The position numbers were made by a program, and so were the translations under genes. This document shows positions 3,145 through 20,127 of a DNA stretch of 20,127 bases, in pieces (position 1 is the first letter of the stretch; each line of letters starts with the position of its first letter). The notes under the pieces are model-generated. The model saw only the letters and a list, made by a program, of their open reading frames with translations, did not search any database and had not been told where the DNA came from. The stretch comes from Baffinella frigidus (lineage: Eukaryota > Cryptophyceae > Cryptomonadales > Baffinellaceae), in the NCBI GenBank assembly GCA_026770585.1, contig MU647229.1, forward strand, positions 135,908-156,034, in the 5' to 3' direction.

Positions 3145-3211
<67 letters not shown>

Positions 3212-5534: not shown

Positions 5535-5903
5535 ATGACGCGCGCCCTGCTGATGCTCGGCGCGGGCGGGCTGGCTTTCCTGGGAGGCGTGACATCGCAG
5601 AACTGCACAAACGCCACTGGCAGCAAGGCTGTCGCTATCGCTGGAGTTGGGGCCTTCACATGCGCTCTCATGGTAAGCAAACGGGGAAAGGCGGCGGGAA
5701 AGAAAGGAGGGAGGAAGGGAGGGAGGGAGGATCAGGCCTCTGCAGCCCCTCTAGAGACTAGCCCCATCTGTCCATCTGGAGACAGTGAGTGATCCTCGGT
5801 TGCTTCTTGCCGCAGGACGACGCGACCATCAAGTGCTGGGGGTACAACGGTTATGGGCAGCTGGGGCTAGGCGACGCCTCCAGCCGGGGCGACGATCCCA
5901 ACG
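5535..5903 (+). CDS. Gene B exons 1-2: signal peptide and blade 1
   Basis: Exon 1 (5535-5672) codes 46 residues, starting MTRALLMLGAGGLAFLGGV, a clear signal peptide. TSQNCTNATGS (possible N-glycosylation sites NCT and NAT) and then AVAIAGVGAFTCALM follow. Exon 2 (5816-5903) reads DDATIKCWGYNGYGQLGLGD. Together they make the first RCC1 blade. The ATG at 5535 was chosen because signal-peptide character begins there and it matches gene A exon 1. The open frame upstream is unrelated. Donors are ATG|GTAAGC and AACG|GTCCTT. Intron 1 contains a purine-rich GGGA tract (about 5692-5730). Confidence 0.85.
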
Positions 5904-7316
5904 GTCCTTGCCTCTCTCCCTCTCTCTCTCATGCCTGACCCGTTCGCTCCACCACCGCGTCTCTCGTGCCGGCCCCACGTGTCTTGACCATTTCCGCCTT
6001 CTCACCTCTCCTCACTTTCCTCGTGCAGAGTTGGGGACGAACCTCCCTTCGGTCGACCTGGGGGCTGGGAAGACGCCCGGTGCCGTCATCACAGGCTATC
6101 AACACGCGTGCGCGATTCTGGTAAGCATTTCCATTGGGAGATCGGGACAAAGGGACCTGCAGCATGTAAAAATGTTACAGTCGGACCCCCATCCAGAGAG
6201 CCACTCGCTGCCGAATCTCAGCCGCCGCAACACGTGGACCGCCTCAAGGCTCGAGACCCGTGCTGCCAGAATCTAGTCACGCAGTACGTAGCGGATCAGC
6301 CCTTCAGTGAAAGACTTGCCCGATCTTGAGACAGTCGGTGATCCTTGGTTGCTTCTCGCCGCAGGACGACGCGACCGTCAAGTGCTGGGGCGGGAACGAT
6401 GAGGGGCAGCTGGGGCTAGGCGACCTCTCCAACCGGGGCGACGATTCCAACGGTCCTTGCCGCACGCTCTGTCTCTTGCGCGCTCTCTCTCTTGCGTGCC
6501 TGCCCCGCGCGCTCCACCACCGCGTCTCTCGTGCCGGCCCCACGTGTCCTCACCCCCGCGCCTGCTCACCGCGTGCAGAGATGGGGACGAACCTCCCTTC
6601 GGTCGACCTCGGGGCTGGGAGGAAGGTCAAAGCTCTCAGCGCTGGCATGCGGCACACGTGCGCGCTGCTGGTAAGGATGCCCGTTGGGAGATCCGGAGGC
6701 GGGGACCTGCAGAACTTTTCAGTCGGAACACATGCCCAGAGAGCCACTCGCTGCCAAATCTCCGCCACCGCAACACCGGGCCGTCTCAAGGCTAGGGAGG
6801 GAGAGAGAGAGAGAGCGAGCGAGCGAGAGAGAGGACCCGTGCAGCCAGAATCTAATCGCGCACCACGTAGCATCATCGCCCCAGAGACCCTTCAGTAAAA
6901 AACTCGCCCTATCCGTGAATCCTGAACCAGTCTAGGAAAGTGATGGTCCGTAAGTGCTGGGGCGAGAGGGGACGTAAAGTGCCGGGTGTGAAAACTATCC
7001 GGGGATAGGCCCGCCTCGGCAGACGTTGGAGCCTCTGGGACTGGGTTGCTTCCTTTACTGAAGAGCCAAATTCCCCCGGTTCCGGTTGGCTAATCCTGGC
7101 TTCCTCCAGCCAATGGCTCAAACGTCTGCCGAGGTGGGCCTATCTCCGGATAGTCCTCACACTGGCAGGGACAACGCGTCCGTAACCCATGAACCCTAAA
7201 CCCTGGACCAGGACGACGCGACCATCAAGTGCTGGGGGTACAACGGTTATGGGCAGCTGGGGCTAGGCGACGCCTCCAACCGGGGCGACGATCCTTACGG
7301 TCCTTGCCTCTCTCCC

Positions 7317-7378
<62 letters not shown>

Positions 7379-7384
7379 GCTCGC

Positions 7385-7416
<32 letters not shown>

Positions 7417-8686
7417 GCGCGCGCGCTCTCTCTCTCTCGCCTGCCCCGCGCGCTCCACCACCGCGTCTCTTGTGCCGGCCCCACGTGTCCTCACCCATTT
7501 CTGCTGCTCACCGCGAGCAGAGATGGGGACGAACCTCACTTCGGTCGATCTGGGGCCTGGGAGGACAGCCGTCGCCGTCGTCGCTGGCTCGTGGCACACG
7601 TGCGCGCTGCTGGTAAGGAAGCCTTTTAAAAAACCGGGGAGCTGTACAAGTGAGGTAGTGTGTAGTAATTTTTATATGTTTGGTCACGTGTCGACCCGCT
7701 TTTCGGGGGAACACGTGACCAACTCCGTACAAAACGCCTACAATCGACATTTACAAAGGGTGCTTGGGTAGCCACGTGTGGACATTGGGAGATCGGGGGG
7801 TGGGGATCTGCAGAATGTTTCAGCCGAACCTCACACCCAGAGAGTCATAATCCAGCCACGAACCACCATTGAGGATCATCGTGCCTGGCGCCCTTCAGTG
7901 AAAGACTTGCCCCATTCGTGGAAGGAGAGGGAAGGAGGCAGAGCGAGAGGGAGGGAAGAGGAAGAGCGAGAGAAGGAGGGAGAGCGAGAGGGAGGGAGAG
8001 AGGGAAAAGGCAGGGGAGAGATAGGAGGGAGAGAGGGAGGGAGGGAGGTGCGGAGGGCCAACGCGGTAGTACCCCATCAACCCTCAACCCTAGACCAGGA
8101 CGACGCGACCATCAGGTTCTGGGGGCAAAACATCAACGCACGGCGACACGTTCCACACGGTGGACTACGGACCTTTCATCAAAAGTTAACGTACCCTGTG
8201 GGCAGTTAACTTTAAGGATTTTCTGATGCAAATTTGGTCACGTTACCGCTAAATCTGCAAATTTGGTCACGTTACCGCTTCGGGGTCCCGAAGCCCTCGT
8301 AGCCCACCGCGTGGATTGGAGTTACCAGTGAAGCAGCTCTCTCTCTCTCTTCTGACTTGAAACCCACCGCAGGACGACGCGACTGTCAAGTGCTGGGGGG
8401 GGGGGGCGTGACTTGACACCCAGCCATAATCATGTGTGTAAGCATAACACCCCTTAACAAACACACAACGTCGCAGGAAGACGCGAGCATCAAGTGCTGG
8501 GGATTGAACGAAATGGGGCAGCTGGGGCTGCGGGGGGTCGTCGTCTACGGCGACGTGGAGGACCGGGGCGACAATCCCTACGGTCCTGTCTCTCTCTCTC
8601 TCTTTCGCTCTCTCGCTCGCTCTCTCTCTTTCGCTCTCGCTCTCTCTCTCTCTTTCTCTCTCGCTCGCTCTCTCTCTCGCCGTCTT

Positions 8687-8721
<35 letters not shown>

Positions 8722-10686
8722 TAGGCGATGCGGTCAACCGGGGCGACAATCCCTAATGTCCCGCACCCGTGGGAGCTTGAGGATTTCATTTCGGAACACA
8801 ACTGAATCAGTTGCGCTATCGTAGGCTCCCAAAGCTTAAGATAAGGGTGGATATGCTATGTTAGGCATCAAACCAAAGCTTAAGATAGCACAAAAGTGCA
8901 ACTGATTCAGTTATGTTCCGAGATTAGATTGATTCAATCCCGCCATAGCTGGACACCTCGCCCTTCACACACAGCGGGCTACGAAGGGATTTTTTGCCCG
9001 AAGTTCGGCCATTTCCCGTTACCTTATCCGTAGGTACCCCCCTCTGTCCTTACGGTATTGCCTACCGTAGATTCCATGACTGATCCAACTCCGGGTTATT
9101 CAAGAAATCTCTTCGTAGTCCGCTGTGTGGGTAGTCGGGCGGGGGAGAACCGAGTACCAAACCTCCAAACCGCTGGTGTGCCGGCCCTGAGTTGTCCTCG
9201 ACCGTACTGCTGCTCTCTCTTGGCTAGGCGACGCGATTAACCGGGGCTCCACAGCCAACGGTCCTTGCCTCTCTCTCGCTCTCTCTCTCTCTCTCGCCTG
9301 CCCTGCGCGCTCCCCCACCGCGTCTCTCGTGCCGACCCGAGTGTCCTCACCCTTTGCTCCTGCTCACCCTTTGCTCATGCTCACCGCGTGCAGAGATGGG
9401 GACAAATCTCTCGTCGATCGACCTCGGGCTTGGCAGGACGGCCAAAGCCATCACCGCGGGAGGGGGACATACGTGCGCGCTGATGGTAAGCCACACGAGG
9501 CGGAGCAAACACATTTTTTAAGAAACGGGGAGCTGCACGCGTGAGGTAGTGTGTAGTAATTATTATATATTTGGTCACGTGTCGACTCGCTTTTTGGGGG
9601 GACACGTGACCAACGCCGTGCAAAACGTCTACAATCGACATTAACAAAGGGTGCTTGGGTAGCTTCGTGGGTCCATTGAGGGATCGGGAAGCGGGGACCT
9701 GGAGAATGTTCCTGTTGGAGTAGAGGGGGAAATGGCTCAAAGAACGCGCCTCCCAGCTCCCCACCCTACACCCAGAGAGCCACTCCCTGTCAAACCTAGC
9801 GAAAGACTCGCCCCATCCGGCAATGCTCAACCAGTCCAGTGATCCTGGGTGCTTCTCGCCGCAGGACGACGCTTCCGTCAAGTGCTGGGGAATGAATATA
9901 GGGGGCCAGCTGGGGATAGGCGACACCCTCGATCGAGGCTACCAACTCTACGGTCCGTGCCTCTCTCTCTCGCTCGCTCGCTCGCTCTCGCTCTCTCTCG
10001 CTCTATCTCTCTCTCTCTCTCTCTCTCTCGCCTGCCCAGCGCGCTCCACCACCGCGTCTCTCGTGCCGGCCCCACGCGTCCTCACCCAGAGCTCCTCACT
10101 CACCTATTTCCTGCTCACCGCGCACATGGATACCTCCCACATAAGAAACCGCCTCCTCGTAGCACCCCACAGTAGGCATATGCGTAGGGCCCTGTGGTGG
10201 TCCTAGGGGAGATGGCAGTTTCTTCTGACCGAGGTACCACTGTGCAGGGATGGGGAAGAACCTGTCGTCGGTCGACTTGGGGGTCGGAAGGACGGCCCTC
10301 GTCGTCGAGGCTGGCGGCTATCATACGTGCGCGCTGCTGGTACCTCCAACCCGAACAGAAAGCCCTCTGGGTGTGGGGTCCGACTGACAAACATTATTGG
10401 CAGGGAGTGGCTTTCTAGGTGCGGGAAGCTTCTGGGGTGGAGACCCGTGCAGCCAGAATCTAGTCACGCACCACCATTGAGGATCATCGTGCCTGAGACC
10501 CTTCAGTGAAAGACTTGCCCCGTCCTGCATTCCGTATTCTGTCAGTGATGCTCGGTTGCTTCTCGCCGCAGGACGACGCGACCGTCAAGTGCTGGGGGTA
10601 CAACGAGGAGGGGCAGCTGGGGACCGGTGACGCCTCCCACCGGGGCGACAATCTTTACGGTCCTTGCCTCTCTCTCTCTCGCTCTC

Positions 10687-10717
<31 letters not shown>

Positions 10718-11814
10718 ATCTTGCCTGACCCGCGCGCTCCACCACCGCGTCTCTCGTGCCGACTCCGAGTTTCCTCAATGATTGCTCTTGCTCACCCTTT
10801 GCTCCTGCCCTCCGCGTGCAGAGATGGGGGAGAACCTCACCTCGATCGACCTGGGGGCTGGGAGGACGCCCGTCGCCATCGTCGCTTCTTGGTTTTATAC
10901 CTGCGCGCTGCTGGTACCATCAACCTTCACAGAAAGTCCAATTCATTTTTGTCATTTCAGTTTTCTGGTACAACAACGCCGGAATTCGGCGTCCTTGTAC
11001 GGGTGCAGGGACCAAACCGATTTGGGATTTGGGCCTGCTCTGAGGGCTGGTGGTAAGCATGCCCACAGGGAGATAGGGAGGCGGGGACCTGCAGCATGTT
11101 TCAGCCGGACTCCACACCCAGAGATCCACGCCCTGCCGATCCTCAGCCGCCGCAACACTTGGACCGCCTCAAGCCTGGAGAACCATTCAGACAAAATCTC
11201 ATCTCGGAAGATACGAGGATCTGTCCACATTTATGCTGTGTTAAGCCTTAGTTTGATGCCAAAAAGAGCATATTCACCCTTATCTTAAGCTTTGGAAGCC
11301 TAAGATAGATTTTGTTGACTTCCGAAATTGCTTTGGAAGCCTAACACAGATTCTGGTAACTTCCAAAATTAAATCGAATCGCGCCTGGCGCGAGTAGTTG
11401 AAAGACTCGCCCCTCCGTGAATCATGAGACATTCAGTGGTCCGACATTTAGTGATCCAGCCCTTCAGTGAAAGAATTGCCCGATCTTGAGACATTATCAT
11501 AGCCAAGGCCATGCAATTTAAACCGTGTTTTTGCTATCTTGGGGTAAATTTGTGCTATTTTACCGCCATGTCGAAGCTAAGATAGCAAAATCTGACAAAA
11601 TCCACCCTTGATATATAAAAGGCGATTCAAACTGCATGGCCTCGGACACTAAATTGAATTTAGTGATGCTCGGTTGCTTCTCGCCGCAGGACGACGAGAC
11701 CATCAAGTGCTGGGGGTACAACGTGCACGGGCAGCTGGGGCGCGGTGACGTCACCAGCTGGGGCCTCCATCGCAACGGTCCTTGCCCCGCGCGCTCCTTG
11801 CCATTCTCTCCTTG

Positions 11815-11866
<52 letters not shown>

Positions 11867-14800
11867 CTGCCCCGCGCGCTCCACCACCGCGTCTCTCGTG
11901 CCGGCCCCACGTGTCCGCACCCATTGCCTCTGCTTTCCGAGTGCAGGGTCGGGGACGAACCTCCCTTCGGTCCACTTGGGGGCTGGTGGGACGGCCGTAC
12001 ACGGCCCTTACTCCTTGCTCACCCTCTTTTTTGTCTTTGTTGCAGAAATGGGCGAACATCTTCCCGCCCTGGCGTTCTGCGGCTGCTCTCCAGGGGCACA
12101 AATTATCGCGGTCTCTGCGGAGGGCAACACATCGACCACATCGATGCGCGTCTGCGCGTGCGAGGCGGGCTTCACGGGGGATGCGGCGAGTGCGGCGAGC
12201 TGCGTGGCGTGCGAAGCGGGGACGTACAAGAGTGGCGTGGGCTCCGCGGTGTGCACGAGCTGCCCGGTGAATGCGGTGACCGTTGAGGGGGGCATGAGCT
12301 GTGCGTGTGCTGCCGGCTTCACGGGGGACGCGTCGGGCGGGGAGAGCTGCACGGCGTGCAGGGCGGGTGCGCACAAGAGTGTCACAGGCTCCGCGGCGTG
12401 CTCTGCGTGCCCTGTGGGGACGTACGTGGCGACGCAAGGCTCTGCTGAATGCTCAAAGTGCCCGTCAGGCTCGAGTGTGTCCGTGACTGGCAGTGTTGCG
12501 GTCACGGCGTGCATCTGCTCCGTGGGGTACGCGGGGAGCGACGGCGGACCCTGTACAGGATGTGGGCCGGGGACGTACAGCAACGCTACTGGCAGTGCAG
12601 TGTGTGCGGTCTGTCCTGCGGATTCGTTCGCGAGTACTGCCAGCAACAAGGCGTGCACGAGGTGTGGGGCAAACGCCGCATCGGCGAAGGGGAGCACTGC
12701 CGCGAGCAGCTGCGGCTGCGCACCGGGCTTCTGGGGGGATGCCGCTAGCGGGGAAATCTGCACCGCGTGTCCTGTTGGGTCATACAAGAACTCTGTTGGT
12801 GCGACGGAGTGCTCTTCGTGCCCAGAAGAAGAACCTCAGTCGTTCCCGGGGAGCACCACGGTGGGGGACTGTGGCGCTTCTGTTTCGTTCATCACATTCT
12901 CGGGGAGGCTTCAGATGAGTCAAGCCGACTTCGAGTCCCCAGCAACAAGCGCCGCGTACGTCTCAGGCGTGGCAGCGGCGCTGGACGTCGCTGAGACCTC
13001 TGTCTTGATCCTCTCGGTGGTGGAGCAAACCACGGGACGCAGGCGCAAGCTGCTCGTGACGTCGGTCGTGGTCGAAACGCGCGTGGTCGTCTCCGCCGAG
13101 CAGGCCGTGACCGTAGCGCGACGCATCACGACCGCCAACCTCAACTCCGCGCTCAGCTTCGCGGGCATCTCCGTCGAGGAGGTGTTCAACATTTCGACCG
13201 TCAGTGGACCCGCTTCGCTTTCCGCGGGGGGGCTCGCAGGGATTGCTATCGGGGGGGTGGCCCTTCTTGCCGCGTGCGTGTGCGTGTGCTGGGGTGGAAA
13301 CCCTGCACCCTGAACCCGAAACCCTATACCCTATACCCGGAACCCTAAACCCTAAACCCTAAACCTTTAACCCGAAACCCGAAACCCTGAACCATAACCC
13401 CTAAACCCTGAACCCTAAACCCTAAACCCTAAACCCTAAACCCAAAACCCTAAACCCTCAACCCTAAACCCTAAACCCTAAACCCTAAACCAGGTGTAGT
13501 CCGGACACGTCGGGCAAAGCTCACCACAGACAACTTTGCCCGGCGGTCACAACTTTTGGGACTGGCGGGCAACGTGGCTGAGGCCGCCAAAGGTGCACCC
13601 GCCACCCCCAACCCGAAACCCGAAACCCTCGTATCAATCAACAGCCATGTGGTTTGTACCCTAATCCCTGGGGCGCATAACCTACAGGAAGTATAAATGA
13701 TGTTTCGCTCTTCTTCTTTATTACGCTCGGAAAAGGTCCCTAGATAGGCCCTTCAGCCTTGAGTTGAGTGATACCAAAGTCCTCAAGCCGTAAGAACGAG
13801 CCCGCCTCGGAACAGGTGCGGACCTTGAACCCTGAACCATGAACCCTGAACCCTACACCTCTAAACCTCTAAAGCCTCAACTCTGAACCCTACAACCTGA
13901 ACCAACCCACTAAACGCTACACCATAAACCCTGCACCCTAAACCATCAAACATAAATCATCAAAAATCAAATATAAACCATGAACCATAAACCAACTAAA
14001 ACAACTAAACTTAACCAAACCAAATCAAATCAAACTGAACCAAACCAAACCAAACCATATTACACCAAAACAGGTGCTGATGCCCAGGAGCTTCGGGACC
14101 TTGTGGAAGACTCTGTCAAAAATCTCGGCAAAGGTACCAGGGTGTAGGGTGTAGGGTGTAGGGTGAAGGGTGTAGGGTGTAGGGTCCCATCTACGTGTGA
14201 CGCTGCAGCGGCCCCCCTGTCACCTCTCTCAAGGCGGGGGCGGCTAGCCAGACGGAGGGTGGAGGGTTTCGGATGGAGCGTCGGGGCGCTGTGGCAGACG
14301 CTGTCAGGGATCTTGGCGAAGGTAACCTACCTAGACCCCACCTAGGCCCTAGACCCCACCTAGGGTAACCTACCTAGACCCCACCTAGGTAACCTACCTA
14401 GACCCCACCTAGGAGAGAGTTGTTTATTGACAACCAAGTGGTCCGGGTCCGGTTTGTCACCCAAGTGAGCGGGACAACGAGCGCCATCGGAGTTTGAATT
14501 CCCTTTTCCACGAAGGTACCCCCCAACCCCTACACTTTCTGGGTGTACGAGGGTCTCGTATACTTTCGGAACGACATCCGAGTGTGTTTTTACTCTTTTT
14601 CTCTCCTTATAATCAAGCATATCAGGATTTCCCCCCTTCTTTCCATATATATCCCCCACCCTTCCCAGGAATCGGTTTTTCATCCAAAAGCATTCCGGGT
14701 GAGCGAAAAAAATAGAGCTTTATTGCGAAGCGCGGGATTATTCTTTTCTGCCACCAAGCAGAATTGAACCCGCGCGGGACTCATAACCTGAGAAGATAAT

Positions 14801-14952
14801 CATTCTTCTTAACCACTCGGCCAACCGCCTTAACCACTCGGCCAAGATGATCCTTCGCCTTAACCACTCGGCCAACCGATAATCCTTCGCCTTAACAACT
14901 CGGCCAACCATAATCCTTCGCCTTAACCACTCGGCCAACCAACCAACCAACC

Positions 14953-15007
<55 letters not shown>

Positions 15008-18000
15008 GAAGTGCTATGGAAGATGCTGTCAGCAACGGTAACACCTCACCCCTAACCCTACCTAGACCCTACCCAGACCCTACATAGACCCTACCCAGAC
15101 CCCACATACACCCTTCCCAGACCCTACGTAGACCCTACATAGACCCTACATAGACCCTGACTATACCCTACCTGACCCCTAAACCCAAAACCCCACACCC
15201 TAAACCACAAACCCTAAACCACAAACCCCAAACTCCCAAACCCTACACCCCAAACCCCAAACCCTAACCCCTAAACCCCAAACCCTACACCAGGCTTCCG
15301 ACTTTCGACTAAGGGAAAGTTCGCCCCGCTGGTGTTTGGTAACTTCGAAACCCCAAACCCTCAACCCTAAGCCCTCAATTCTGAACCTTAACCCCCAAAC
15401 CCTAAACCAGGTAACTTCGACGAGGCAACGACGGCTCTGGTTTCCCGAAACCCCAAACCCCAAACACCAAACACCAAACCCTACACTCTAACCCCTAAAC
15501 CTTGAACCCTAAATCCTAAACCCTAAACCCTAAACCCTAAACCCTAAACCCTAAACCCTAAACCCTAAACCCTAAACCCTAAACCCTAAACCCTAAACCC
15601 TAAACCAGAGCGACTTTCTGTGCGTGAACAGCGCCGAGCTCCACGCAAACATGTAAACCCAAATCCTTAATCCTAATCCCTGAAACCTAAACCTGAAACC
15701 TAAACATTCCCAAACCCTGAACCAGGGCAAAACGCGAGCTGGCCGTCGTCTCGGAAATCGAAGAGATGGTTGCCCCTAAGCCCTAAACCATCATTTCCAA
15801 ACCCTGAACCCCAAACCATAAACCATCAACACCAAACCCTAAACCAGGTTGCGGGCGTACGACAGCGCGTCATCCAAAACAGCGTGGAATCCAAGGGTTG
15901 GGCGAGTGACGAGGCAACTCCTCAACCCTAAACCCTAAACTCTAAACCCTCATCCCTCACCCCTAAACCCTAATCTCTAAAACCTAAACCTTGAACCCTA
16001 AACCCTAAGCCCCCAATCCTAAACCCTAACCCACCCCAAACCCCGCGCCCCACGCCCCAAACCTTAAACCTCACTCCCTAAACGCCAATTCCTAATCCCT
16101 ATACTCCAAAACCAAACCCCTAAACCCTTAACCCCAAACCAGGACCAGGCGCAGCTGAAGGAGGCCGAAGAGCTCGAGGAGTGCCTTGACTACGTGCGAA
16201 CTCCAAACCCTAAACCCCAGACACTAAACACCAAACCTTAACCCCAAACCCTAAACCCTGAACACCAAACCCTAAACACCAAACCCTGAACCCTAAACCC
16301 TAAACCCCGAACCCCGAACCCGAAACCAGGTGCTCAATCAAGAAGCGGGGTCGTCCAAAGTTGTGTTTGAAAACGGAGGCGCCACTCAAGGTCAAACCTA
16401 GATTCTAAAACCTAAACCCTAATTCCTAAACCCTAACCCCGAAACACTAAAACACTAAACACTAAACCCTAAAATATCATAACTAAACCCTAAACCCTAA
16501 ACCCCAAAGCCTAAACCCCAAACCTTTTTTCTCAAACCCTAAGCCCTCAACCCTGAACCCTAAAACCCTAAACCCCAAACAATAAACCAGGCCTGAAGCG
16601 CGACTGCGACACGGACGGCAACCTCCTGCCGTCGCGCGAGATCGTCGACCCCAGACCCTAAACCCTAAACCTTAATCCCTAAACCCCAAACACCAACACC
16701 CTAATCCCTAAACCCCAAACCCCCCAAACCCCAAACCCACCAAACCCCCAACTCGAAATCCTAAACCCCAAGCCCTAAATCAGGTGGACCGCGAGACTGG
16801 GCAAACGCGCGGCATGCTCCTAGACGACTTCACAGCCCACCCTTCTTCGAAGCTCGCAGGTATGCCACGCCAGAGGCCTCGATGGTAATCACTGCTTTAT
16901 CGACGCCAGGTCTGGCGTAGTTGACTTTAGAATTGTTCGGGGTTCCACTGAAATATGTCAAAAGTGGATGTTTTGAAGCCTCTGGCGTAGTAGGGTTCAG
17001 AACACTTTGGGACGAATCCACAGCCCACCCCAGCGCGACCCAAGGAGGTTCGAGGTTTAGGGTTCAGGGGTGTCGGGTTTAGGGTCATGACCACACCTTG
17101 GGGCCAGGACTGCGGTGGGAGAATGTGCGGACACTAAACCCTAGGCTCTAAACCCCAGACCCCAAACCCGAAGCCCGAAAACCGAAAACCAATTCCAGGG
17201 CTGGGTCGGGAGCATGTGCTGGCGCTGCGCCTCTACACTACCGTCGCCTTCAAAAGCATACACCCTAAACCCCGAGCCCAAACCCTAAACCCTAGACCCC
17301 AAACCCCAAATTCTAAACTCAAAACCCGAAACCCTACACCCCCAACACCAAACCCCAAACCCCAAACCCCAAACCCCAAACCAGGCATCAACCACCCGCT
17401 ACGCGACGCGACACGCAAGGCTGAGGGCAAAGCGCACCCGCTGCCTGTCACGGTGCGACCCCGCGAACCCTAAAGTTGTTTGTCCACTTACGAACCCGCG
17501 AACACCAAATACCAAACACCAAGACTGAAACTCAAAAACCCAAACCCCAAACTCCAAACCCTTACCCAGGTTGCGTTACTCGAGAAGGCCGTGCTTCAGC
17601 TGCGCAAGGTAAACCCTGAACCCTGAACCCTAAAACCTAATCCCTAAACCCTAAACCCGAAACCCGAAACCAGGTGGAAGGGAACGAGACTACGGCGCAC
17701 GACTCGGTTCCCCAAATCCCCAAGCCCGAACCGCAACCCGAAGCCCGAGAACCGCAAGTCGAAACCGACACCCAGAACACTAGTCCCGAAACCCGTTAGC
17801 AGAAATTCGAATCCAGAAACCCGAAACCCTGATCCCGGAATCCGCATCCTGAATCCCGAAATTCGAAACCCGCAACCTCATCCCAAAACCCGCAAGCAGG
17901 TAGACCTGTACCGCGGCCTCGCAAGTCGCTCCATTCCGGAGGAGTTCTTAGCCAAGGGCGGCACGGAGTTGGCGTCCATGTCGACCACACGGTGAAACTG

Positions 18001-20127
18001 GGTTTAGGATTGGGCGGCGGTTGGAAGGATAGGGCGGCAGTTGCAAGGAGAGGAAGGCAGTTGGCAGGATAGGGTGGCGATTGACTTGATAGGAGGGCGG
18101 TTAGCTGGATAAAGTTTGGGGAAACCAGCCTGGCCAAGGAGTTCTTAGCCAAGGGCGGCACGGAGCTGGGGCCTATGTCGACCACGCTGTCAAAATTTAA
18201 TTATTTAATTTCGCATTACCACTCGAGGCTACAAGTATGACTATTTTGAAACAGGGTTCATTTACAAGTGAAGGAGGGAAAGGAATGTGTAGTAATTTTT
18301 ACACAAGTAGGGGCGTTTGGTCTCGTAGCTCAAGGAATTCCTTGAGTAGCTCAAGGAATTCCTTGAGCTACTAAACGTGACCAAGCCTGCCCCTGACTGG
18401 TACTAAATTTAACAACCCCACATTTAAAATACTCCCTCTTCCAGCCTCGAGTGGTAGATTTCACCGTGATTTTGAACCTTCCTATATTGTTTTGTTCTGG
18501 TTCGGATTCTAGTTTATTTTTGCCTATCGTAGAGTCTAGGAATTATTCACGTATGGGTTGTTCAAGAAATCCCTTCATAGTCCGCTGTTTTGGTTGCCCT
18601 GCAGTATCGCCAGTTCAGAAGACTTTTTCGAGTTATAGAACTCCGAGGTGGAACAAATCAAGGCTGGATCTTGAGCAATTTCCTTCGCAAGGAGCTCGAA
18701 TTCGGAGCTCTGGCTGAGGGAAATGTGTCAAGATCCAGCTTTGATTTGATCCACTTCATGATGATCCAACACTCCACGCAGTAATTCTTCGGCTCCGGAC
18801 CGAACCCATATCCCTAATCCGCCGCCCAAACCTAAACCCTATACCCCAATCCCGAGACCCAATACCCTTAACCCCTAGACCCTAAACCCTAAACCCTGAA
18901 CCCAAAACCAGGGACCTCAAGGTTGCGCTGCAGTACTGTGCCAGTGAGCATGCGGTAAATCCGCGAATCCTAAACCCTAAATCTGCGAACCCTGAACCCT
19001 GAACCTCGAACCCTGAACCCTGAACCCTGAACCCTGAACCCTGAACCCTGAACCCTGAACCCTGAACTTTGAACCCTCAGGTGATCTTGAGGCTTCGGAC
19101 CGAGGGCTTCATGGGAAGGGGCGCGGTAAACCCCAAAACCCCAAAAAACCAAACCATAACCGAAAATCCAAAACACTCAAAACTCAATGATCAATGCTCA
19201 ATGATCAATGCTCGATGCTCAACACCAACCCTCAAACCTCAACCCGCAATCCTCAACCTCAAACCCTAAACGCTAAACCTGAAACCCGAAACCGAGAACA
19301 GGACATCGCATTCCTCTCAGCCTTCCCCGCGGAGTCAGAGGTTTGCGCCCCTTCCTTCTAATCTCTCAAGTGGCGAGTTATCCCTTGAGTGGCGAGTAGC
19401 CTCTTACACTCCTTCCTAGGCCAATGCGGTGTTGCCTGCGAGCCTTCGTGGGGCATAAACGACTCGCTCGCCAGTTGAGGGATACAACGTGTATTCGCTG
19501 GCATGACCTCTCACGTCGCCTGCTCACCCACAGCCTCCGTGGGGGTGCAAAACATTGTCGTTATACACCAAGTGTCCATTCAACTGCAGACTCTTATCAT
19601 TTCCCACGAATTATGCTTATACACAAAAAATCGATTTCCCGCAGGTGGTGTCCCCAAAACCTATTATCCATATACATTAGATATCATTGTACACTAGTTG
19701 TCCATTCAATGAGGAACTGTTTTCAGGTGGTGTTTCCGCCCCAGACGTGCCTCGCCCCCCTTGTCGGCCATGCCTTCCATGTAGTAAGCTCGTCCTAGAG
19801 GGCGAGACGTTCTCCTCCCCTCCCCAGCCCTTGAGGTCGGTCGCGGACCGCTAGAGCCCTTACGCCTCGTCACACCTTGCCGTGTGGCTAGTCGCGGTCG
19901 TGTTTGACACTTCGTTCAACTTCGCTTTCCCCCTTTCAGGTGGTGTCCCCGAAAACCTACATACATTATATACCAATTATCATTGTACACTAGTTATGCA
20001 ATTAATGGGGGGCTGTTTTCAGGTGGTGTTTCCACCGCTGACGTACCTCGGGCCTGTGCGGGAGAAGGACGAGAACGGCGTCGAGCAGCCCAAGAAACCG
20101 CAGGTCACCATTGAGGGCGAGGGGGGG
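5535..20127 (+). CDS. Gene B: RCC1 propeller - cysteine-rich - transmembrane - ADP-ribosyltransferase protein (3' end beyond window)
   Basis: Exons: 5535-5672, 5816-5903, 6029-6120, 6365-6452, 6579-6670, 7212-7299, 7521-7612, 8477-8582, 9394-9485, 9865-9952, 10248-10339, 10572-10659, 10822-10913, 11690-11777, 12046-13293, 13494-13592, 14074-14133, (14265-14321 and 15012-15037 tentative), 15294-15338, 15411-15439, 15609-15652, 15726-15768, 15848-15907 or 15913, 16143-16193, 16330-16390, 16591-16643, 16784-16859, 17199-17255, 17385-17452, 17570-17608, 17674-17706, 17900-17991, 18912-18954, 19081-19125, 19302-19340, 20023-20127. Phases agree at every junction except around 14134-15037. About 1,260 residues are visible. 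Joining the RCC1 part to the ART part rests on matching phase 1 at 13293/13494, a GT donor, an aaaccag acceptor, and basic residues right after the membrane helix. The alternative is two genes split near 13.3 kb or 14.2-15.0 kb. Confidence 0.65.
6029..6452 (+). CDS. Gene B blade 2 (exons 6029-6120 and 6365-6452)
   Basis: The B exon reads ELGTNLPSVDLGAGKTPGAV and ends YQHACAIL. The A exon reads DDATVKCWGGN, GQLGLGD, RGDDSN. The intron between them (244 nt) is short and has no foreign element, so it shows the basic B-to-A intron whose pieces recur in the longer ones. Confidence 0.85.
6579..7299 (+). CDS. Gene B blade 3 (exons 6579-6670 and 7212-7299)
   Basis: The B exon reads EMGTNLPSVDLGAGRKVKAL and ends MRHTCALL, donor CTG|GTAAGG. 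The A exon reads DDATIKCWGYNGYGQLGLGD and is almost a copy of the blade 1 A exon. The intron between them carries a MITE-like element (6981-7166). Unlike the other blade introns it ends in telomere-like sequence, aaccctaaaccctggaccag, instead of the usual TTCTCGCCGCAG. Confidence 0.82.
6981..7166. mobile_element. MITE with about 50-bp inverted repeats
   Basis: Arms 6981-7033 and 7115-7166 match over almost their whole length (cores ACTATCCGG, GATAGGCCC, CCTCGGCAGACGTT). 186 bp, non-coding. The high arm similarity suggests a recent insertion. Confidence 0.82.
7308..7440. repeat. (TC)n tract, intron after blade 3 of gene B
   Basis: Starts 9 nt after the donor GTCCTTGCC, includes a C7 run, and ends at the constant block GCCTGCCCCGCGCGCTCC. 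Shorter tracts sit at the same place at 5911-5930 and 9268-9297. Confidence 0.9.
7521..8582 (+). CDS. Gene B blade 4 (exons 7521-7612 and 8477-8582)
   Basis: The B exon reads EMGTNLTSVDLGPGRTAVAV and ends WHTCALL. I take 8477-8582 as the A exon: EDASIKCWGLNEMGQLGL, then an insertion around VVVYGDVEDRGD, 106 nt in all, six codons longer than the others and still phase 1. Two earlier A-like copies in the 864-nt intron (8099-8159 and 8373-8399) are broken and are probably skipped. Confidence 0.7.
7613..7772 (+). repeat. GTCACGTG intron element, copy 1
   Basis: A block from the donor side (GGAAGCCTTTT, GGGGAGCTGTACAAGTGAGG) through GTGTAGTAATTTTTA, the palindromic GGTCACGTGT / ACACGTGACC, to AAAGGGTGCTTGGGTAGCC. 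Copy 2 is at 9486-9664, copy 3 inverted at about 1129-1285 in gene A. No open frame is conserved in it. Confidence 0.75.
7920..8050. repeat. GGGA-rich purine tract
   Basis: About 130 bp of purine on the + strand, opposite in polarity to the (TC)n tracts of gene B. It lies in the phase-0 intron before the broken A exon at 8099. Confidence 0.85.
8099..8159 (+). pseudogene. Truncated A-exon copy
   Basis: After ctagaccag it reads DDATIRFWGQN, but the GQLGLGD part is lost. It ends CACACG|GTGG. No B exon follows, so using it would break the blade order. Confidence 0.55.
8228..8279. repeat. 23-bp direct repeat
   Basis: GCAAATTTGGTCACGTTACC plus GCT occurs exactly at 8228-8250 and 8257-8279. An AAAGTTAAC / GTTAACTTT hairpin lies just upstream (8182-8213). 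Confidence 0.85.
8373..8406 (+). pseudogene. A-exon fragment ending in a G12 run
   Basis: After CACCGCAG it reads DDATVKCWG, then twelve G in a row (8395-8406) and unrelated sequence. No donor or GQLGLGD follows. Confidence 0.6.
8588..8719. repeat. (TC)n tract, intron after blade 4 of gene B
   Basis: Follows donor GTCCTG and runs directly into a broken A-exon fragment at 8720, which suggests unequal exchange within the tract. Confidence 0.9.
8720..8758 (+). pseudogene. 3' half of an A exon
   Basis: It reads GDAVNRGDNP followed by a stop, directly after a (TC)n tract. The front of the exon and the donor are gone. Confidence 0.5.
8791..8921. mobile_element. TIR element, TCGGAACAYAACTGAATCAG family
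   Basis: 24-bp arms 8791-8814 and 8898-8921 with one mismatch. Inside, AAAGCTTAAGATAAGGGTGGATATGC is found again, inverted, at about 11262-11290. Confidence 0.78.
8966..9131. mobile_element. TIR element, CCCACACAGCGG family, copy 2
   Basis: Arms at 8966-8996 and about 9101-9131, same sequence and inner hairpin as copy 1. It lies in the disturbed intron after blade 4. Confidence 0.75.
9222..9260 (+). pseudogene. 3' half of an A exon with intact donor
   Basis: It reads LGDAINRGSTAN and ends AACG|GTCCTTGCC with a normal (TC)n intron after it. The DDATVKCWG half is missing, so it cannot form a blade. It shows that a complete copy once lay here. Confidence 0.55.
9394..9952 (+). CDS. Gene B blade 5 (exons 9394-9485 and 9865-9952)
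   Basis: The B exon reads EMGTNLSSIDLGLGRTAKAI and ends GHTCALM. The A exon reads DDASVKCWGMNIGGQLGIGD. Phases 1 and 0 are kept. The preceding intron (8583-9393, 811 nt) is heavily disturbed, with two broken A-exon fragments and two TIR elements. The intron between the two exons carries a copy of the GTCACGTG element. Confidence 0.78.
9486..9664 (+). repeat. GTCACGTG intron element, copy 2
   Basis: Same order of blocks as copy 1 with a longer start. It follows the blade 5 B exon. Confidence 0.72.
9961..10029. repeat. (TC)n tract, intron after blade 5 of gene B
   Basis: Same position after donor GTCCGTGCC; (TCGC) units at the start, pure TC later. Confidence 0.9.
10123..10244. mobile_element. 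Inverted-repeat insertion 3 nt before a 3' splice site
   Basis: Ends CACATGGATACCTC and GAGGTACCACTGTG, imperfect arms of about 35 bp. It splits the constant intron end CTCACCGCG / TGCAG, leaving CAG against the exon at 10248. Confidence 0.6.
10248..10659 (+). CDS. Gene B blade 6 (exons 10248-10339 and 10572-10659)
   Basis: The B exon begins after GTGCAG with gg instead of ag, so the usual Glu of EMG becomes Gly (GMGKNLSSVDLGVGRTA). It ends GGYHTCALL with donor GTACC. The A exon reads DDATVKCWGYNEEGQLGTGD. A 122-bp inverted-repeat insertion ends 3 nt before the B exon (10123-10244). Confidence 0.8.
10669..10719. repeat. (TC)n tract, intron after blade 6 of gene B
   Basis: Short version at the same position after GTCCTTGCC. 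Confidence 0.88.
10822..11777 (+). CDS. Gene B blade 7 (exons 10822-10913 and 11690-11777)
   Basis: The B exon reads EMGENLTSIDLGAGRTPVAI and ends FYTCALL. The A exon reads DDETIKCWGYNVHGQLGRGD and ends AACG|GTCCTT. This completes seven blades, the number in the classical RCC1 propeller. The 776-nt intron between them carries a TIR element on its donor (10917-11053) and two AT-rich elements. Confidence 0.8.
10917..11053. mobile_element. TIR element next to donor, CCAACCCTCAC family, gene B
   Basis: Starts CCATCAACCTTCACAGAAAG right after the donor GTA and ends GCTCTGAGGGCTGGTGG, followed by a second donor-like GTAAGCATGCCC. Same layout as at 3722-3872. The middle (GTCCTTGTACGGGTGCAGGGACCAA) is shared with the copy near 140-180. 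Confidence 0.65.
11190..11370. mobile_element. AT-rich element remnant related to 8791-8921
   Basis: Contains GCATATTCACCCTTATCTTAAGC, the reverse of part of 8843-8870, and a tandem pair of TTTGGAAGCCTAAnA units. Boundaries are unclear. Confidence 0.45.
11506..11642. mobile_element. TIR element, AGGCCATGCA family
   Basis: Ends AGGCCATGCAATTTAAACCG and its inverted form CGATTCAAACTGCATGGCCT (17 of 20). Inner arms TTTTGCTATCTT / AAGATAGCAAAA. 137 bp, ending about 47 bp before the blade 7 A exon. Confidence 0.7.
11815..11864. repeat. (TC)n tract, intron after blade 7 of gene B
   Basis: Pure TC run, here displaced about 35 nt from the donor by a second copy of CCCCGCGCGCTCC-like sequence. Confidence 0.88.
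11947..12045 (+). other. Truncated eighth B exon, alternative 5' extension of the large exon
   Basis: After GTGCAG the sequence reads GTNLPSVHLGAGGTAVHG, a B-exon start whose second half is missing. It stays in frame into the large exon through a pyrimidine-rich stretch coding SLLTLFFVFVA. Either the acceptor at 11946 is used and these 33 residues are included, or the better acceptor at 12045 is used and this is intron. I favour the second because the hydrophobic stretch is the polypyrimidine tract of that acceptor. Confidence 0.5.
12046..13293 (+). CDS. Gene B large exon: cysteine-rich GCC2/GCC3-like region, SEA-like region, transmembrane helix
   Basis: It starts after a strong pyrimidine tract and TTTGTTGCAG, phase 1, giving EMGEHLPALAFCGCSPG. 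About 12090-12870 codes repeated cysteine motifs of two alternating kinds: EGF-like CACEAGFTGDA and ephrin-receptor-like GTYKSGVGSAVCTSCP, the pattern of the GCC2/GCC3 family, about five to six repeats. A cysteine-free region (about 12880-13200) with SFITFSGRLQ and RRRKLLVTSVVVETRVVV resembles SEA-like juxtamembrane domains (inference). LAGIAIGGVALLAACVCVCW at 13233-13292 is a transmembrane helix. Read-through beyond 13293 gives a stop at 13311-13313, but the donor TGGG|GTGG in phase 1 joins to 13494. Confidence 0.8.
13233..13292 (+). other. Transmembrane helix of gene B
   Basis: Twenty uncharged residues from LAGIAIGG to VCVCW. The next exon (13494) begins with VVRTRRAK, a basic stop-transfer sequence. 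With the N-terminal signal peptide this predicts a type I membrane protein, propeller and cysteine-rich stalk outside and everything downstream inside. The cluster of cysteines at the inner edge could be lipid-modified (inference). Confidence 0.75.
13294..13493 (+). repeat. Telomere-like repeat intron joining membrane and cytoplasmic parts
   Basis: 200 nt of CCCTAAA and variants between GTGGAAACC and aaaccag. Both its ends and the downstream exon carry GTG. It holds a run of perfect CCCTAAA units at about 13410-13440. Confidence 0.75.
13494..13592 (+). CDS. Gene B juxtamembrane cytoplasmic exon
   Basis: 99 nt, phase 1 in and out, after ctaaaccag. It reads VVRTRRAKLTTDNFARRSQL, then LGLAGNVAEAAK. 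It is basic at first, then helical. The donor AAAG|GTGCACC shares GTGC with the start of the next exon. No family is recognised in this piece. Confidence 0.68.
13593..14073 (+). repeat. Composite telomere-like intron
   Basis: Telomere-like ends with a unique stretch at 13630-13815 in the middle. AGGTGC occurs at the donor (13591-13596), in the middle (CAGGTGC near 13815) and at the acceptor (14072-14077), as if two insertions shared one target. The last part drifts to (AAACC)n. Confidence 0.65.
14074..14133 (+). CDS. Gene B helical linker exon
   Basis: 60 nt, phase 1 both ends. It reads ADAQELRDLVEDSVKNLGK, an amphipathic helix. The acceptor is aaaacag|GTGCTG and the donor AAAG|GTACC. Its end (GAAGACTCTGTCAAAAATCTCGGC) recurs in degenerate form at 14288-14321 and 15018-15037. 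Confidence 0.65.
14265..14321 (+). CDS. Tentative gene B exon, repeat of the helical linker
   Basis: In phase 1 it would read FRMERRGAVADAVRDLGE, similar to the LVEDSVKNLGK end of the preceding exon, with donor GAAG|GTAACC. The acceptor (GGTGGAG) has no pyrimidine tract, so the start is uncertain. It may be a duplicated exon remnant inside an intron. Confidence 0.35.
14749..14829 (-). tRNA. tRNA-like sequence, probable pseudogene (long variable arm)
   Basis: The minus strand has a perfect box A, TGGCCGAGTGG (14823-14813), and a near box B, GGTTCAATTCT (14771-14761). Between them AGAAGA-ATGATTA-TCTTCT makes an anticodon-like stem-loop (GAT in the anticodon position), and CTCA-GGTTA-TGAG makes a long variable arm. 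The T stem pairs badly and no acceptor stem can be closed. A GAT anticodon does not fit a long-variable-arm tRNA of Ser or Leu type. I read it as a tRNA-derived pseudogene or SINE head. Confidence 0.45.
14806..14940 (-). repeat. Tandem copies of a tRNA 5' half
   Basis: The unit TTGGCCGAGTGGTTAAGGCG, plus about 10 bases such as AAGGATTATC, is repeated five times with spacings of about 22-32 bp (one copy has GTT for GGT). Every copy keeps box A, only the last has a box B. It lies inside a gene B intron, on the opposite strand. Confidence 0.7.
14936..15006. repeat. (AACC)n then (AACT)n microsatellite
   Basis: About 70 bp of 4-bp repeats, directly continuing the last tRNA-half copy (caacc becomes caact), as if slippage started from its end. 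Confidence 0.9.
15012..15037 (+). CDS. Tentative gene B micro-exon
   Basis: It reads AMEDAVSN and then phase 1 into 15294, which fits the downstream frame. It again resembles the LVEDSVKN motif. The upstream side does not fit: the nearest AG (15010-15011) leaves the wrong phase. Either the acceptor lies elsewhere or this is a decayed copy. Confidence 0.35.
15294..15439 (+). CDS. Gene B exons 15294-15338 and 15411-15439
   Basis: They read FRLSTKGKFAPLVF, then G from the split codon, then NFDEATTAL. The 72-nt intron between them is pure CCCTAAA-like sequence and is flanked by an exact 11-bp direct repeat, GGTAACTTCGA (15338-15348 and 15410-15420). The first copy supplies the GT donor. Phases 1/1 and 1/0. 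Confidence 0.65.
15515..15606. repeat. Longest perfect CCCTAAA run
   Basis: About 11-13 perfect CCCTAAA units before ccag|AGCGAC. It is part of the intron 15440-15608. Confidence 0.92.
15609..15768 (+). CDS. Gene B exons 15609-15652 and 15726-15768
   Basis: The first reads SDFLCVNSAELHAN plus two bases, donor CAT|GTAAACCC, where the telomere-like repeat itself forms the donor. The second completes Met and reads AKRELAVVSEIEEM, probably helical. Phase 2 at the shared junction agrees. The acceptor before 15609 is followed by A, the only exception to AG|G in the ART half. Confidence 0.65.
15848..15913 (+). CDS. Gene B exon with non-GT donor
   Basis: It reads VAGVRQRVIQNSVESKGWAS, and the frame then runs into a stop in telomere-like sequence. 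The next exon must be entered in phase 0, and both GT candidates (15897, 15906) give phase 1 and a downstream stop. The donor is therefore GC (after 15913) or GA (after 15907). GTTGC begins both the upstream intron (15769) and this exon (15848). Confidence 0.6.
16143..16390 (+). CDS. Gene B exons 16143-16193 and 16330-16390
   Basis: The first reads DQAQLKEAEELEECLDY, a strongly charged helix of coiled-coil type. The second reads VLNQEAGSSKVVFENGGATQ, ending in phase 1 at CAAG|GTCAAAC. The intron between them begins GTGC and the second exon also begins GTGC. Confidence 0.7.
16591..16859 (+). CDS. Gene B exons 16591-16643 and 16784-16859, entry to the ART domain
   Basis: They read LKRDCDTDGNLLPSREI, then VDRETGQTRGMLLDDFTAH and PSSKLA. 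The TRGMLLDDF stretch just before the ART fold is, to my recollection, a common lead-in in this family of protist ADP-ribosyltransferases. The intron between them starts GTCGAC and the next exon starts GTGGAC, a one-mismatch direct repeat. Phase 0 at that junction, phase 1 at the end. Confidence 0.7.
16860..17198 (+). repeat. Composite intron with a foldback element and both repeat polarities
   Basis: A small foldback (about 16864-16991) has CCACGCCAGAGGC / GCCTCTGGCGTAG ends. TTTAGGG-polarity sequence lies at 17054-17090. CCCTAAA-polarity sequence follows. GGACTGCGGTGGGAGAATGT at 17107 resembles the next exon start (17199), a long imperfect direct repeat. Confidence 0.6.
17011..17053 (+). 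pseudogene. Partial duplicate of the end of exon 16784-16859
   Basis: It reads DESTAHPSATQG, against DDFTAHPSSKLAG at 16820-16859, and both end in phase 1 before GT. It lies beyond the small foldback element. It could be an alternative exon end or a remnant. Confidence 0.45.
17199..17452 (+). CDS. Gene B exons 17199-17255 and 17385-17452, ART N-terminal helices
   Basis: They read LGREHVLALRLYTTVAFK, then S from the split codon, then INHPLRDATRKAEGKAHPL. The pattern L-T-x-x-E-x-x-A-L-x-x-Y-T, then I-N-x-x-L-R is the helical first part of R-S-E type ADP-ribosyltransferases. The intron between them is GC-AG: AAA|GCATACACC, next exon GCATCAACC, with GCAT at both ends. Only this GC donor keeps the frame. 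Confidence 0.75.
17256..17899 (+). repeat. Telomere-like introns of the ART domain
   Basis: Introns 17256-17384 (GC-AG), 17453-17569, 17609-17673 and 17707-17899. The last drifts to CCCGAAA and CGAAACC units. Confidence 0.75.
17570..17706 (+). CDS. Gene B exons 17570-17608 and 17674-17706, ART helix before the active-site strand
   Basis: They read VALLEKAVLQLRK and VEGNETTAHDS, phase 0 throughout. The helix with LxxAxxQLRK precedes the LYRG strand in this family. The 65-nt intron between them starts AAG|GTAAACCC and ends aaaccag. Confidence 0.7.
17900..17991 (+). CDS. Gene B exon with catalytic Arg and Ser-Thr motif of the ART domain
   Basis: It reads VDLYRGLASRSIPEEFLAK, then GGTELASMSTT and ends in phase 2. 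LYRG holds the NAD-binding arginine and MSTT the serine of the R-S-E triad. A second, shorter copy of its 3' half lies in the next intron at 18137-18190. The donor is CG|GTGAAAC. Confidence 0.8.
18001..18117. repeat. Minisatellite, about 20-bp unit, five copies
   Basis: Units such as GGCGGCAGTTGCAAGGAGAG and GGTGGCGATTGACTTGATAG. It lies between the two copies of the catalytic exon segment. Confidence 0.75.
18137..18190 (+). pseudogene. Duplicate of the catalytic ART exon's 3' half
   Basis: It reads AKEFLAKGGTELGPMSTT, nearly the same as EEFLAKGGTELASMSTT at 17939-17989. An acceptor-like gaaaccag lies just upstream at about 18121-18128. The LYRG half is missing. It may be a decayed duplicate or a candidate alternative exon. 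Confidence 0.5.
18217..18456. mobile_element. Foldback element with tandem perfect palindromes
   Basis: TIRs TACCACTCGAGGCT (18217-18230) and AGCCTCGAGTGGTA (18443-18456). The centre carries CTCAAGGAATTCCTTGAG twice (18329-18346, 18350-18367). GTGTAGTAATTTTTA is shared with the GTCACGTG elements. Confidence 0.75.
18647..18754. mobile_element. Foldback element, GGCTGGATCTTGA family
   Basis: Arms 18647-18674 and 18728-18754 (CAAATCAAGGCTGGATCTTG type), two or three mismatches, 108 bp, non-coding. A short open frame across it is a shadow of the arms. Confidence 0.7.
18912..19340 (+). CDS. Gene B exons 18912-18954, 19081-19125, 19302-19340, ART core with ExE motif
   Basis: They read DLKVALQYCASEHA, VILRLRTEGFMGRGA and DIAFLSAFPAESE. 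Phases 2, 0, 0 join directly to MSTT upstream and to VVFPPLTYL downstream. The ESE of PAESE matches the ExE active-site motif of arginine-specific ARTs. Together with LYRG and MSTT the triad is complete, so the enzyme looks intact. Introns are CCCTGAA and CCCTAAA repeats with donors GTAAATCC, GTAAACCC and GTTTGCG. Confidence 0.8.
18985..19080 (+). repeat. CCCTGAA run in an ART intron
   Basis: About ten units of CCCTGAA, ending in CCCTCAG|GTGATC. This is the C-for-T variant (TTCAGGG) of the telomere repeat, also seen in Plasmodium telomeres. Confidence 0.88.
19126..19301 (+). repeat. Degenerate telomere-like intron
   Basis: Donor GTAAACCCC and acceptor gagaacag. The middle has short TCAATGATCAATGCTC repeats (19184-19220). 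Confidence 0.7.
19645..19726 (+). repeat. 82-bp intron-like element, copy 1
   Basis: Runs from GTGGTGTCCCC to CTGTTTTCAG and is flanked by CAG|GTGGTGT at both ends. Shares TATCATTGTACACTAGTT with copy 2. A degenerate 3' part lies at about 19550-19596 (TACACCAAGTGTCCATTCAA). Confidence 0.75.
19727..19798 (+). pseudogene. Degenerate duplicate of the VVFPPLTYL exon
   Basis: After CTGTTTTCAG it reads VVFPPQTCLAPLV and reaches a stop at about 19796. Like the exon at 20023 it is preceded by an 82-bp element starting GTGGTGTCCCC. A tandem duplication of element plus exon is the simplest explanation. Confidence 0.6.
19940..20022 (+). repeat. 83-bp intron-like element, copy 2
   Basis: Same ends and inner blocks as copy 1, directly before the last exon. 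Each copy has a GT donor, an AG acceptor and a 10-bp direct repeat CAGGTGGTGT. Confidence 0.75.
20023..20127 (+). CDS. Gene B last visible exon, end of ART domain (runs off right edge)
   Basis: After CTGTTTTCAG it reads VVFPPLTYLGPVREKDENGV and continues open to the window end (35 codons). FPPLTYL directly after the ExE motif is the usual next strand of ARTs. An 83-bp intron-like element (19940-20022) precedes it, starting with GTGGTGT, the same bases that start this exon. Confidence 0.78.
   Translation, partial: MVFPPLTYLGPVREKDENGVEQPKKPQVTIEGEGG

Follow-up and report, generated by a model that had tools for sequence, protein, structure and literature searches.

How does a protein-coding gene come to be interrupted, many times over, by introns made of telomere-type repeat? 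The question is raised by a stretch of 20,127 nucleotides (nt) of the genome of Baffinella frigidus, an Arctic alga of the Cryptophyceae, referred to here as the window, which lies at a contig end (C855:135908-156034) in an assembly of 382 Mb and 1364 contigs; public sequences are cited by label (P0001, P0180, P0315 etc.), contigs by C numbers and fetched stretches by L numbers. On the forward strand, RCC1-repeat exons (r0-r13) are followed by an exon e1 and then by an ART half in small exons, e2-e23, the joining of r13 to e1 within one gene being predicted. The second half of this single predicted gene (window positions 12045-20127) comprises 21 exons encoding Cys-rich repeats, a membrane segment and an ART-fold domain, with Pfam matches to Ephrin_rec_like (E 2.3e-27) and to ART (PF01129, NAD:arginine ADP-ribosyltransferase; 25.8 bits, above the curated cut-off of 22.3). 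The answer that we favour, and hold to be somewhat more probable than its negation, is that these are real spliceosomal introns, which arose through the insertion of telomere-type DNA into exons during the repair of chromosome breaks.

Telomeres of the TTTAGGG type are known from cryptophytes. Bases were counted as telomere-type when they fell within a 14-mer matching (CCCTAAA)n at 11 or more of its 14 positions; a telomere-type 3' end had at least 60% coverage over the final 40 nt, and a mostly-repeat intron at least 75% along its length. The 6008 bases from 13294 to 19301 contain 2300 telomere-type bases on the forward strand and 129 on the reverse, five first-order Markov simulations of the same region giving 175-256 only; the 13,293 bases of the window to the left have just 66 and 14 on the two strands. 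Twenty introns link e1 to e23, 19 of them inside this region. A telomere-type 3' end was found in 18, the exceptions being e2/e3 and e22/e23, and 14 are mostly repeat, 12 of these at 94% or above, in keeping with the original prediction that many introns of the ART half (at least 17) consist of CCCTAAA or CCCTGAA repeat. The exons lying between repeat introns had been put at 29-99 nt, and this range holds for the internal exons in use. Donors are GT in 18 cases and GC in two, and the acceptor is always CAG. The aaaccag ending proposed for these introns is less general, with ACCAG at the end of 12 and the full AAACCAG in ten of those. It had also been suggested that the repeats often form both donor (GTAAACCC) and acceptor; the part concerning the donor was overstated, the exact GTAAACCC occurring in three of the 20 introns.

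The exon chain was built from AG and GT/GC sites and the open reading frame, yielding 823 amino acids (aa) without a stop when two further candidate exons, e4 and e5, were included. When the ART half was searched against a database, 117 homologous proteins came out of the 7994 scored, headed by P0001, a public intronless open reading frame (ORF) of 519 aa on a 2790-base Joint Genome Institute (JGI) contig. With e4 and e5 removed, the chain differs from P0001 at one of 502 aa and the residues surrounding all 20 junctions are identical, a match at the protein level which agrees with the proposal that the repeats are tolerated as they are spliced out; the two diverge within the last exon. A search of the assembly with P0001, in which only the best candidates were scored and parts of the assembly were N, found the window locus, broken into several matches, but no uninterrupted near-identical copy. 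Because the junctions match and no such copy was found, P0001 is most likely a transcript. Its being a retrocopy in this assembly was rejected for want of a near-identical uninterrupted match, though much of the fetched sequence is N; a retrocopy would in any case have needed spliced RNA. At the level of sequence comparison, exact removal of the window introns from the mRNA can be regarded as good as shown. The 117 homologous proteins support conserved coding, with Pfam ART above the cut-off. A further 110 genome stretches (80 of them listed, with prokaryote titles) were judged to be chance matches and were not used, and nothing usable came from viral contigs.

The proposed check on the presence or absence of each intron in sister species was made on paralogues instead, and empty sites were seen in two of these, C332 and C18, rather than in an orthologue. 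C332 is identical to the window protein at 275 of 416 aligned aa (66%) and runs as a single open frame over 16 window intron positions, from e1/e2 to e18/e19, 14 of which are alignable residue by residue. Beyond this frame, at a place that is uninterrupted in the window gene, a GT leads into a telomere-type array and then an N run; to the extent that the sequence is legible, this is a telomere-type intron at a site of its own. C18 is unbroken at eight positions (e15/e16 through e22/e23), and 1 kb of it contains no array; the columns for e1/e2, e13/e14 and e14/e15 fall beyond the clear match and were left out. The paralogue on C1 is without introns e21/e22 and e22/e23; at its e20/e21 site an N run gives way to some 17 telomere-type bases, the last letters ahead of the exon being CCCTAG. 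C472, C127, C158, C36 and C80 gave unbroken matches over their parts, as taken from search alignments rather than from reading the DNA. The introns of the window gene look gained, and gain is favoured over loss since several divergent lineages are intron-free.

A second copy of the gene is present on the reverse strand of the same contig (L139; C855:118600-123200), in which e15-e23 are identical to the window at 498 of 521 nt. Its introns occupy the same places, and seven of the eight have a telomere-type 3' end. The first four are 477, 287, 394 and 447 nt long, the window introns being 129, 117, 65 and 193 nt, and the last four are 1054, 307, 561 and 441 nt, against 920, 126, 176 and 682 nt. 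Within intron e15/e16 of this copy, the exon start GGCATCAAC is present on both sides of an additional array. The comparison of these two loci shows fast turnover of intron length, between exons about 96% identical.

An insertion that duplicates its target should leave an intron whose start copies the start of the exon behind it. Summed over the 20 introns, the prefix common to intron start and downstream exon start is 49 bases, compared with 33.6 for shuffled pairings (p=0.00025); with the 11-bp case of e6/e7 removed the values are 39 and 30.9 (p=0.004), and a narrower test restricted to positions 3-7 of like pairs gives p=0.026. At least four bases are shared in five introns, two or three in seven, and none or one in eight. 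When the intron starts are set against the empty sites of C332, the 14 alignable junctions have a prefix sum of 27 versus 16.4 (p=0.0004) and 40 matches in the first six bases versus 30.2 (p=0.006). At e13/e14, the intron retains the uninterrupted GTCGAC of the paralogue, the window exon now reading GTGGAC. Footprints of repair, in the form of deletion, filler or duplication, are likewise found in the window gene. Four residues of the window protein at e12/e13 have no counterpart in C332 and are absent from all seven other aligned homologues, P0001 aside; at e10/e11 the window protein is 21 residues shorter than the intronless paralogue, with the gap no more than three residues from the junction; and 58 nt from the end of e19 are duplicated in the following intron at 88% identity. 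Short direct repeats at both intron ends, a feature of staggered breaks, are also present; the starts shared by intron and exon run from 0 to 10 bases, and hence do not represent a target duplication of fixed length. With the intron-free paralogues, the target-copy signatures, the four-aa addition and the 21-aa deletion argue for the earlier suggestion that telomere-repeat DNA was captured at breaks, telomerase being the enzyme that we infer.

The sequence of events may have been as follows. A break would open in an exon, and its repair would often duplicate target sequence, from a few bases up to about a dozen, for which there is statistical support and which is clear in five to six of the 20 introns. 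Filler of the (CCCTAAA)n type would be added, most likely by telomerase acting at the free 3' end or through the capture of telomeric DNA or RNA. The upstream copy of a GT or GC in the target would then serve as the donor, with the CAG provided where the array ends, an arrangement that can be seen in the sequence. An array in the CCCUAAA sense would offer the spliceosome few decoys and, with the frame restored, the insertion would be nearly neutral. As RNA the CCCUAAA repeat has no GU and no AG, and its complement has both in each unit. An insertion in the opposite orientation would bring a GT and an AG with every unit and would presumably be removed by selection; in all 14 mostly-repeat introns CCCTAAA is on the sense strand. 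GT is entirely absent from 13 of these 14, and AG occurs 22 times where 41 are expected; the C-rich arrays would survive because GT or AG is rare in them. The arrays would later expand, shrink and change unit. We know of no telomerase RNA for Baffinella, none having been sought.

A genome-wide count, another of the proposed checks, was carried out in part and points to wide occurrence. The 28-mer (CCCTAAA)4 matches the assembly 15,790 times forward and 14,831 times in reverse, 30,621 times altogether with overlapping matches counted, and the reversed pattern has one of each; the places listed for the 28-mer are all in contig C1 (2.1 Mb). Eighteen unselected 10-kb stretches, of which 138 of the 180 kb are N, contain 65 arrays (telomere-type runs of at least 35 bases) amounting to 8275 bases, in seven of the stretches. 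One of these, L121, encodes a P4-ATPase, the joined exon peptides matching DRS2 (E 1.2e-53); its arrays are in the sense orientation in 34 of 34 cases, and its DKTGT motif is split over two exons with telomere-type sequence between. Telomere-type introns are thus present in at least one further gene of the genome. CAG is found within the set distance of the 3' end in 41 of the 65 sampled arrays, followed by G in 34, and of the 5' end in 18 of 65. The base before it varies, the pairs being GC in 13, CC in 11, AC in ten and TC in seven of the 41, so the arrays have no fixed end; AAACCAG as the fixed end of an element, or as a copy of the template border of a telomerase RNA, was dropped because of this variation. 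An array lies between the copies of nine of ten local direct repeats in L121, 12 of 13 in L130 and one of six in L133, the first two counts being weak because arrays are dense there. The type of repeat is common to the window, L121, L130 and L139, with no unique shared body seen. In P0315, a Baffinella frigidus protein from another contig, a telomere-type stretch ending ..TPNQ|V is read as exon in the public model, and further gene models made public for this genome could be faulty where such introns lie. P0247, named as a Flavobacterium glycosyltransferase, and P0271, nameless and with PF09972, have TPNPKPQ-type stretches too.

A number of observations weigh against insertion during break repair as the source of these introns. 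The eight introns sharing at most one base with the exon start have no target copy; the deletion at e10/e11 sits in a poorly conserved stretch; and in three of the 14 mostly-repeat introns there is a further AG no more than 11 nt upstream of the acceptor. The AAACCAG end, found in half of the introns of this gene, is not general in the sample, which leaves both a fixed element end and a telomerase-template border unsupported. The sample itself is small and dominated by two stretches, L121 and L130 having 54 of the 65 arrays, and a direct-repeat test over 39 sampled arrays, with crude boundaries there, was not significant (p=0.18). The paralogues may have lost introns via cDNA, C332 being without 16 in a row. 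Finally, the three long introns (e3/e6, e14/e15 and e19/e20) and RCC1 intron r4/r5 are telomere-type near the 3' end only, which fits the invasion of existing introns equally well.

This last point bears on the strongest of the rival explanations, one which we nevertheless consider unlikely, namely that older, ordinary introns were colonised by a telomere-type satellite, their sequence being replaced through slippage, gene conversion or telomeric insertion, such that the repeat did not create them. The homogenised local unit variants seen among the arrays, for example CCCTGAA and CCCCAAA, would be expected of a satellite, as would the fast length turnover in the second gene copy, and C1 apparently shares the e20/e21 intron. 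Colonisation accounts less readily for 14 introns that are at least three-quarters repeat, most of them almost wholly so, or for introns that are wholly absent from paralogues and whose starts match paralogue exonic sequence at the empty sites; nor does it anticipate the donor and telomere-type array of C332 at a new position.

Rather improbable, in our view, is a mobile introner-like element, carrying a 3' splice site and a telomere-like body, gaining its donor from target duplication and transposing through genes. A target-copy donor with an insert-borne acceptor is the arrangement described for Symbiodinium introners (PMC9860276), ten of the introns in this gene have identical AAACCAG ends, and inverted telomere-type arms are present in introns e3/e6 and e19/e20. 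However, the varied base before CAG in the sampled arrays leaves no fixed end, the length of the duplication is variable, array unit and length differ, and no G-strand arm was found at the 5' end of any of the 14 mostly-repeat introns, the G-strand pieces of the region being located in the three long introns, where they lie more 5' than the C-rich sequence. Hence spread as an element, offered originally as the alternative to capture at breaks, is the weaker of the two, there being neither a common end in the sample nor a 5' G-strand arm.

That an intron-rich ancestor gave rise to intronless copies through cDNA, the paralogues having lost what the window gene retains, we regard as distinctly improbable: the 16 consecutive intron-free positions of C332 are as expected for a reverse-transcribed copy, but the divergent C18, C472, C127, C158, C36 and C80 are unbroken too (the DNA having been read for C18 only), C332 bears its own telomere-type array, and the four extra aa at e12/e13 are absent from seven other aligned homologues, P0001 aside. 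A decayed subtelomeric pseudogene or an assembly artefact, to which the repeat content, the pseudo-exon copies and the N runs (all but one base of the 10 kb that adjoin the window on its left) might point, is scarcely credible and the silent, decayed subtelomere named at the outset as a refutation was rejected, given 20 junctions in intact frame, an intronless ORF in P0001, matching exons in another, distinct copy (L139), and arrays within a 2.1-Mb contig and in seven of 18 sampled stretches.

The origin of most introns is an old question, for which introners, which are transposon-like, are a source shown to act across whole genomes. It is possible, and we put it forward tentatively as something short of an even chance, that telomere maintenance acts as a genome-wide intron factory in this alga, telomerase or DNA derived from telomeric RNA healing breaks in exons with C-strand repeats, whose near silence to the spliceosome in one orientation would turn the scars into thousands of introns with no transposon involved. 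Where telomeric insertions in exons are spliced out, and intron-free paralogues and near-identical duplicates exist in the same genome, a second, repair-based source of introns would become open to direct test. Spliced insertions of this kind would account as well for public models that are broken, among them P0180 and P0315.

All exons and introns of the window gene are on the forward strand, the exons being placed by the chain and P0001, and the introns by P0001 junctions and repeat coverage. Exon e1 (12045..13293) is an uninterrupted 1249 nt encoding the Ephrin_rec_like Cys-rich repeats and membrane segment; its 5' boundary is predicted, and the e1/e2 junction agrees with P0001. The small exons are e2 (13494..13592), e3 (14074..14133), e6 (15294..15338), e7 (15411..15439), e8 (15609..15652), e9 (15726..15768), e10 (15848..15913), e11 (16143..16193), e12 (16330..16390), e13 (16591..16643), e14 (16784..16859), e15 (17199..17255), e16 (17385..17452), e17 (17570..17608), e18 (17674..17706), e19 (17900..17991), e20 (18912..18954), e21 (19081..19125), e22 (19302..19340) and e23 (20023..20127), the last running to the window end; P0001 diverges past KPQV, and a GT at 20104 would close the exon at 20103.

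Telomere-type coverage is complete in introns e8/e9 (15653..15725; donor GTAAACCC), e15/e16 (17256..17384; GC donor, direct repeat GCAT) and e17/e18 (17609..17673; donor GTAAACCC). It is 99% in e1/e2 (13294..13493), e6/e7 (15339..15410; 11-bp direct repeat GGTAACTTCGA on both flanks), e7/e8 (15440..15608), e9/e10 (15769..15847; direct repeat GGTTGC), e10/e11 (15914..16142; GC donor) and e13/e14 (16644..16783; starting GTCGAC), and 98% in e11/e12 (16194..16329; direct repeat GTGC) and e12/e13 (16391..16590). Intron e20/e21 (18955..19080) is 94% telomere-type, with CCCTGAA units predominating, followed by e18/e19 (17707..17899; 82%), e21/e22 (19126..19301; 80%, donor GTAAACCC), e16/e17 (17453..17569; 50%) and e2/e3 (13593..14073; 44%), the 3' end of which is degenerate and below threshold. 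Of the long introns, e3/e6 (14134..15293) is G-rich in telomere-type repeat at its 5' end and C-rich at its 3' end, with inverted arms at 14139-14185 and 15240-15286; it also holds two pseudo-exons skipped in P0001, e4 (14265..14321), which by eye is like the end of e3, and e5 (15023..15037). Intron e14/e15 (16860..17198) has a C-rich telomere-type 3' end and a G-rich piece at 17047-17089, and e19/e20 (17992..18911) has a telomere-type 3' end and the 58-nt copy of the e19 end at 18137-18194.

Other repeats were observed in these introns. Positions 14826-14941 consist of about four 31-nt units (CGCCTTAACCACTCGGCCAACC...), which we take to resemble the 5' portion of a reverse-strand tRNA; ARAGORN found no tRNA in the window. 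Inside e19/e20 there is a 53-nt inverted repeat (18645-18757; 77% complementary, arms 7 nt apart). The non-telomere-type intron e22/e23 (19341..20022) contains repeat copies of the e23 start: 19652-19754 and 19948-20050 are 78% identical over 103 nt, through TTTTCAG into GTGGTGTTTCC, with CAGGTGGTGTCCCC ahead. The pair has the look of another intron-forming insert, non-telomeric this time, that again takes its donor from the target.

The RCC1-repeat half of the predicted gene (exons r0-r13; 5535..11777, forward strand) has a telomere-type 3' end (7183..7211, forward strand) in one of its 14 introns, r4/r5, where the public model P0180 joins across the acceptor. Telomere-type sequence (8074..8099, forward strand) can also be read within intron r6/r7, where it precedes a degenerate copy of an RCC1 exon. 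The RCC1-half query is 99% identical to P0180, a public Baffinella protein and the only near-identical match that bears a name, across 66% of the query; the end of that model reads into an RCC1 intron, and the ART half is left out. Between 5774 and 11934, long sequence is common to RCC1 exons and introns, the pattern that tandem duplication of entire exon-intron units would give. A second RCC1-repeat gene occupies 1-4500 on the reverse strand, head to head with the first, and ART-half exons with telomere-type introns are found further along the contig at C855:118676-123156; the two probably form one gene, the stretch between them being mostly N.

A literature search by titles and abstract openings, with subscription papers mostly outside it, found no work on telomere-repeat introns. 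Introners (PMC9860276) resemble the window introns in being new spliceosomal introns of algae, among which GC donors occur, and in one of their arrangements the target duplication supplies the donor and the insert the acceptor, as here. What differs is the body, here a tandem repeat of telomere type whose unit and length vary; the ends are not fixed in the sample, nor is the length of the duplication, and no word beginning 'telomer' occurs in the main text of that paper. Introns gained in Daphnia at staggered breaks have direct repeats of 4-12 bp, with internal repeats from repeated breaks (PMC4202315), and so share short direct repeats at their ends with those of the window; telomeric filler goes unmentioned in the paper ('telomer' 0 times), whereas here a single repeat family fills most introns. 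The lineage-specific introns of the chlorarachniophyte Amorphochlora are rich in (AT)n (PMC12730881), and are likewise gained introns of simple repeat in an alga, at protosplice-like sites; the repeat is a different one, and introners are considered unlikely by the authors, who do not commit themselves to a source. Plant telo boxes are short telomere motifs in genes and introns for which telomerase has been proposed as the source (PMC3022908), but are single units with a promoter role, as opposed to whole introns. A parallel in footprint comes from vertebrate interstitial telomeric sequences, which insert in one step at double-strand breaks, with telomerase implicated (PMC7215372, PMC8537989). 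Telomeric insertions in the horse show a mix of target deletion, random filler and direct duplication (PMC7215372), much as the deletion, addition and duplication in the window do. In humans, 31% of such sequences are within existing introns and none is in an exon, which the authors attribute to the stop codons they would bring (PMC7215372); unlike these, the arrays of the window gene interrupt coding exons many times over and act as introns.

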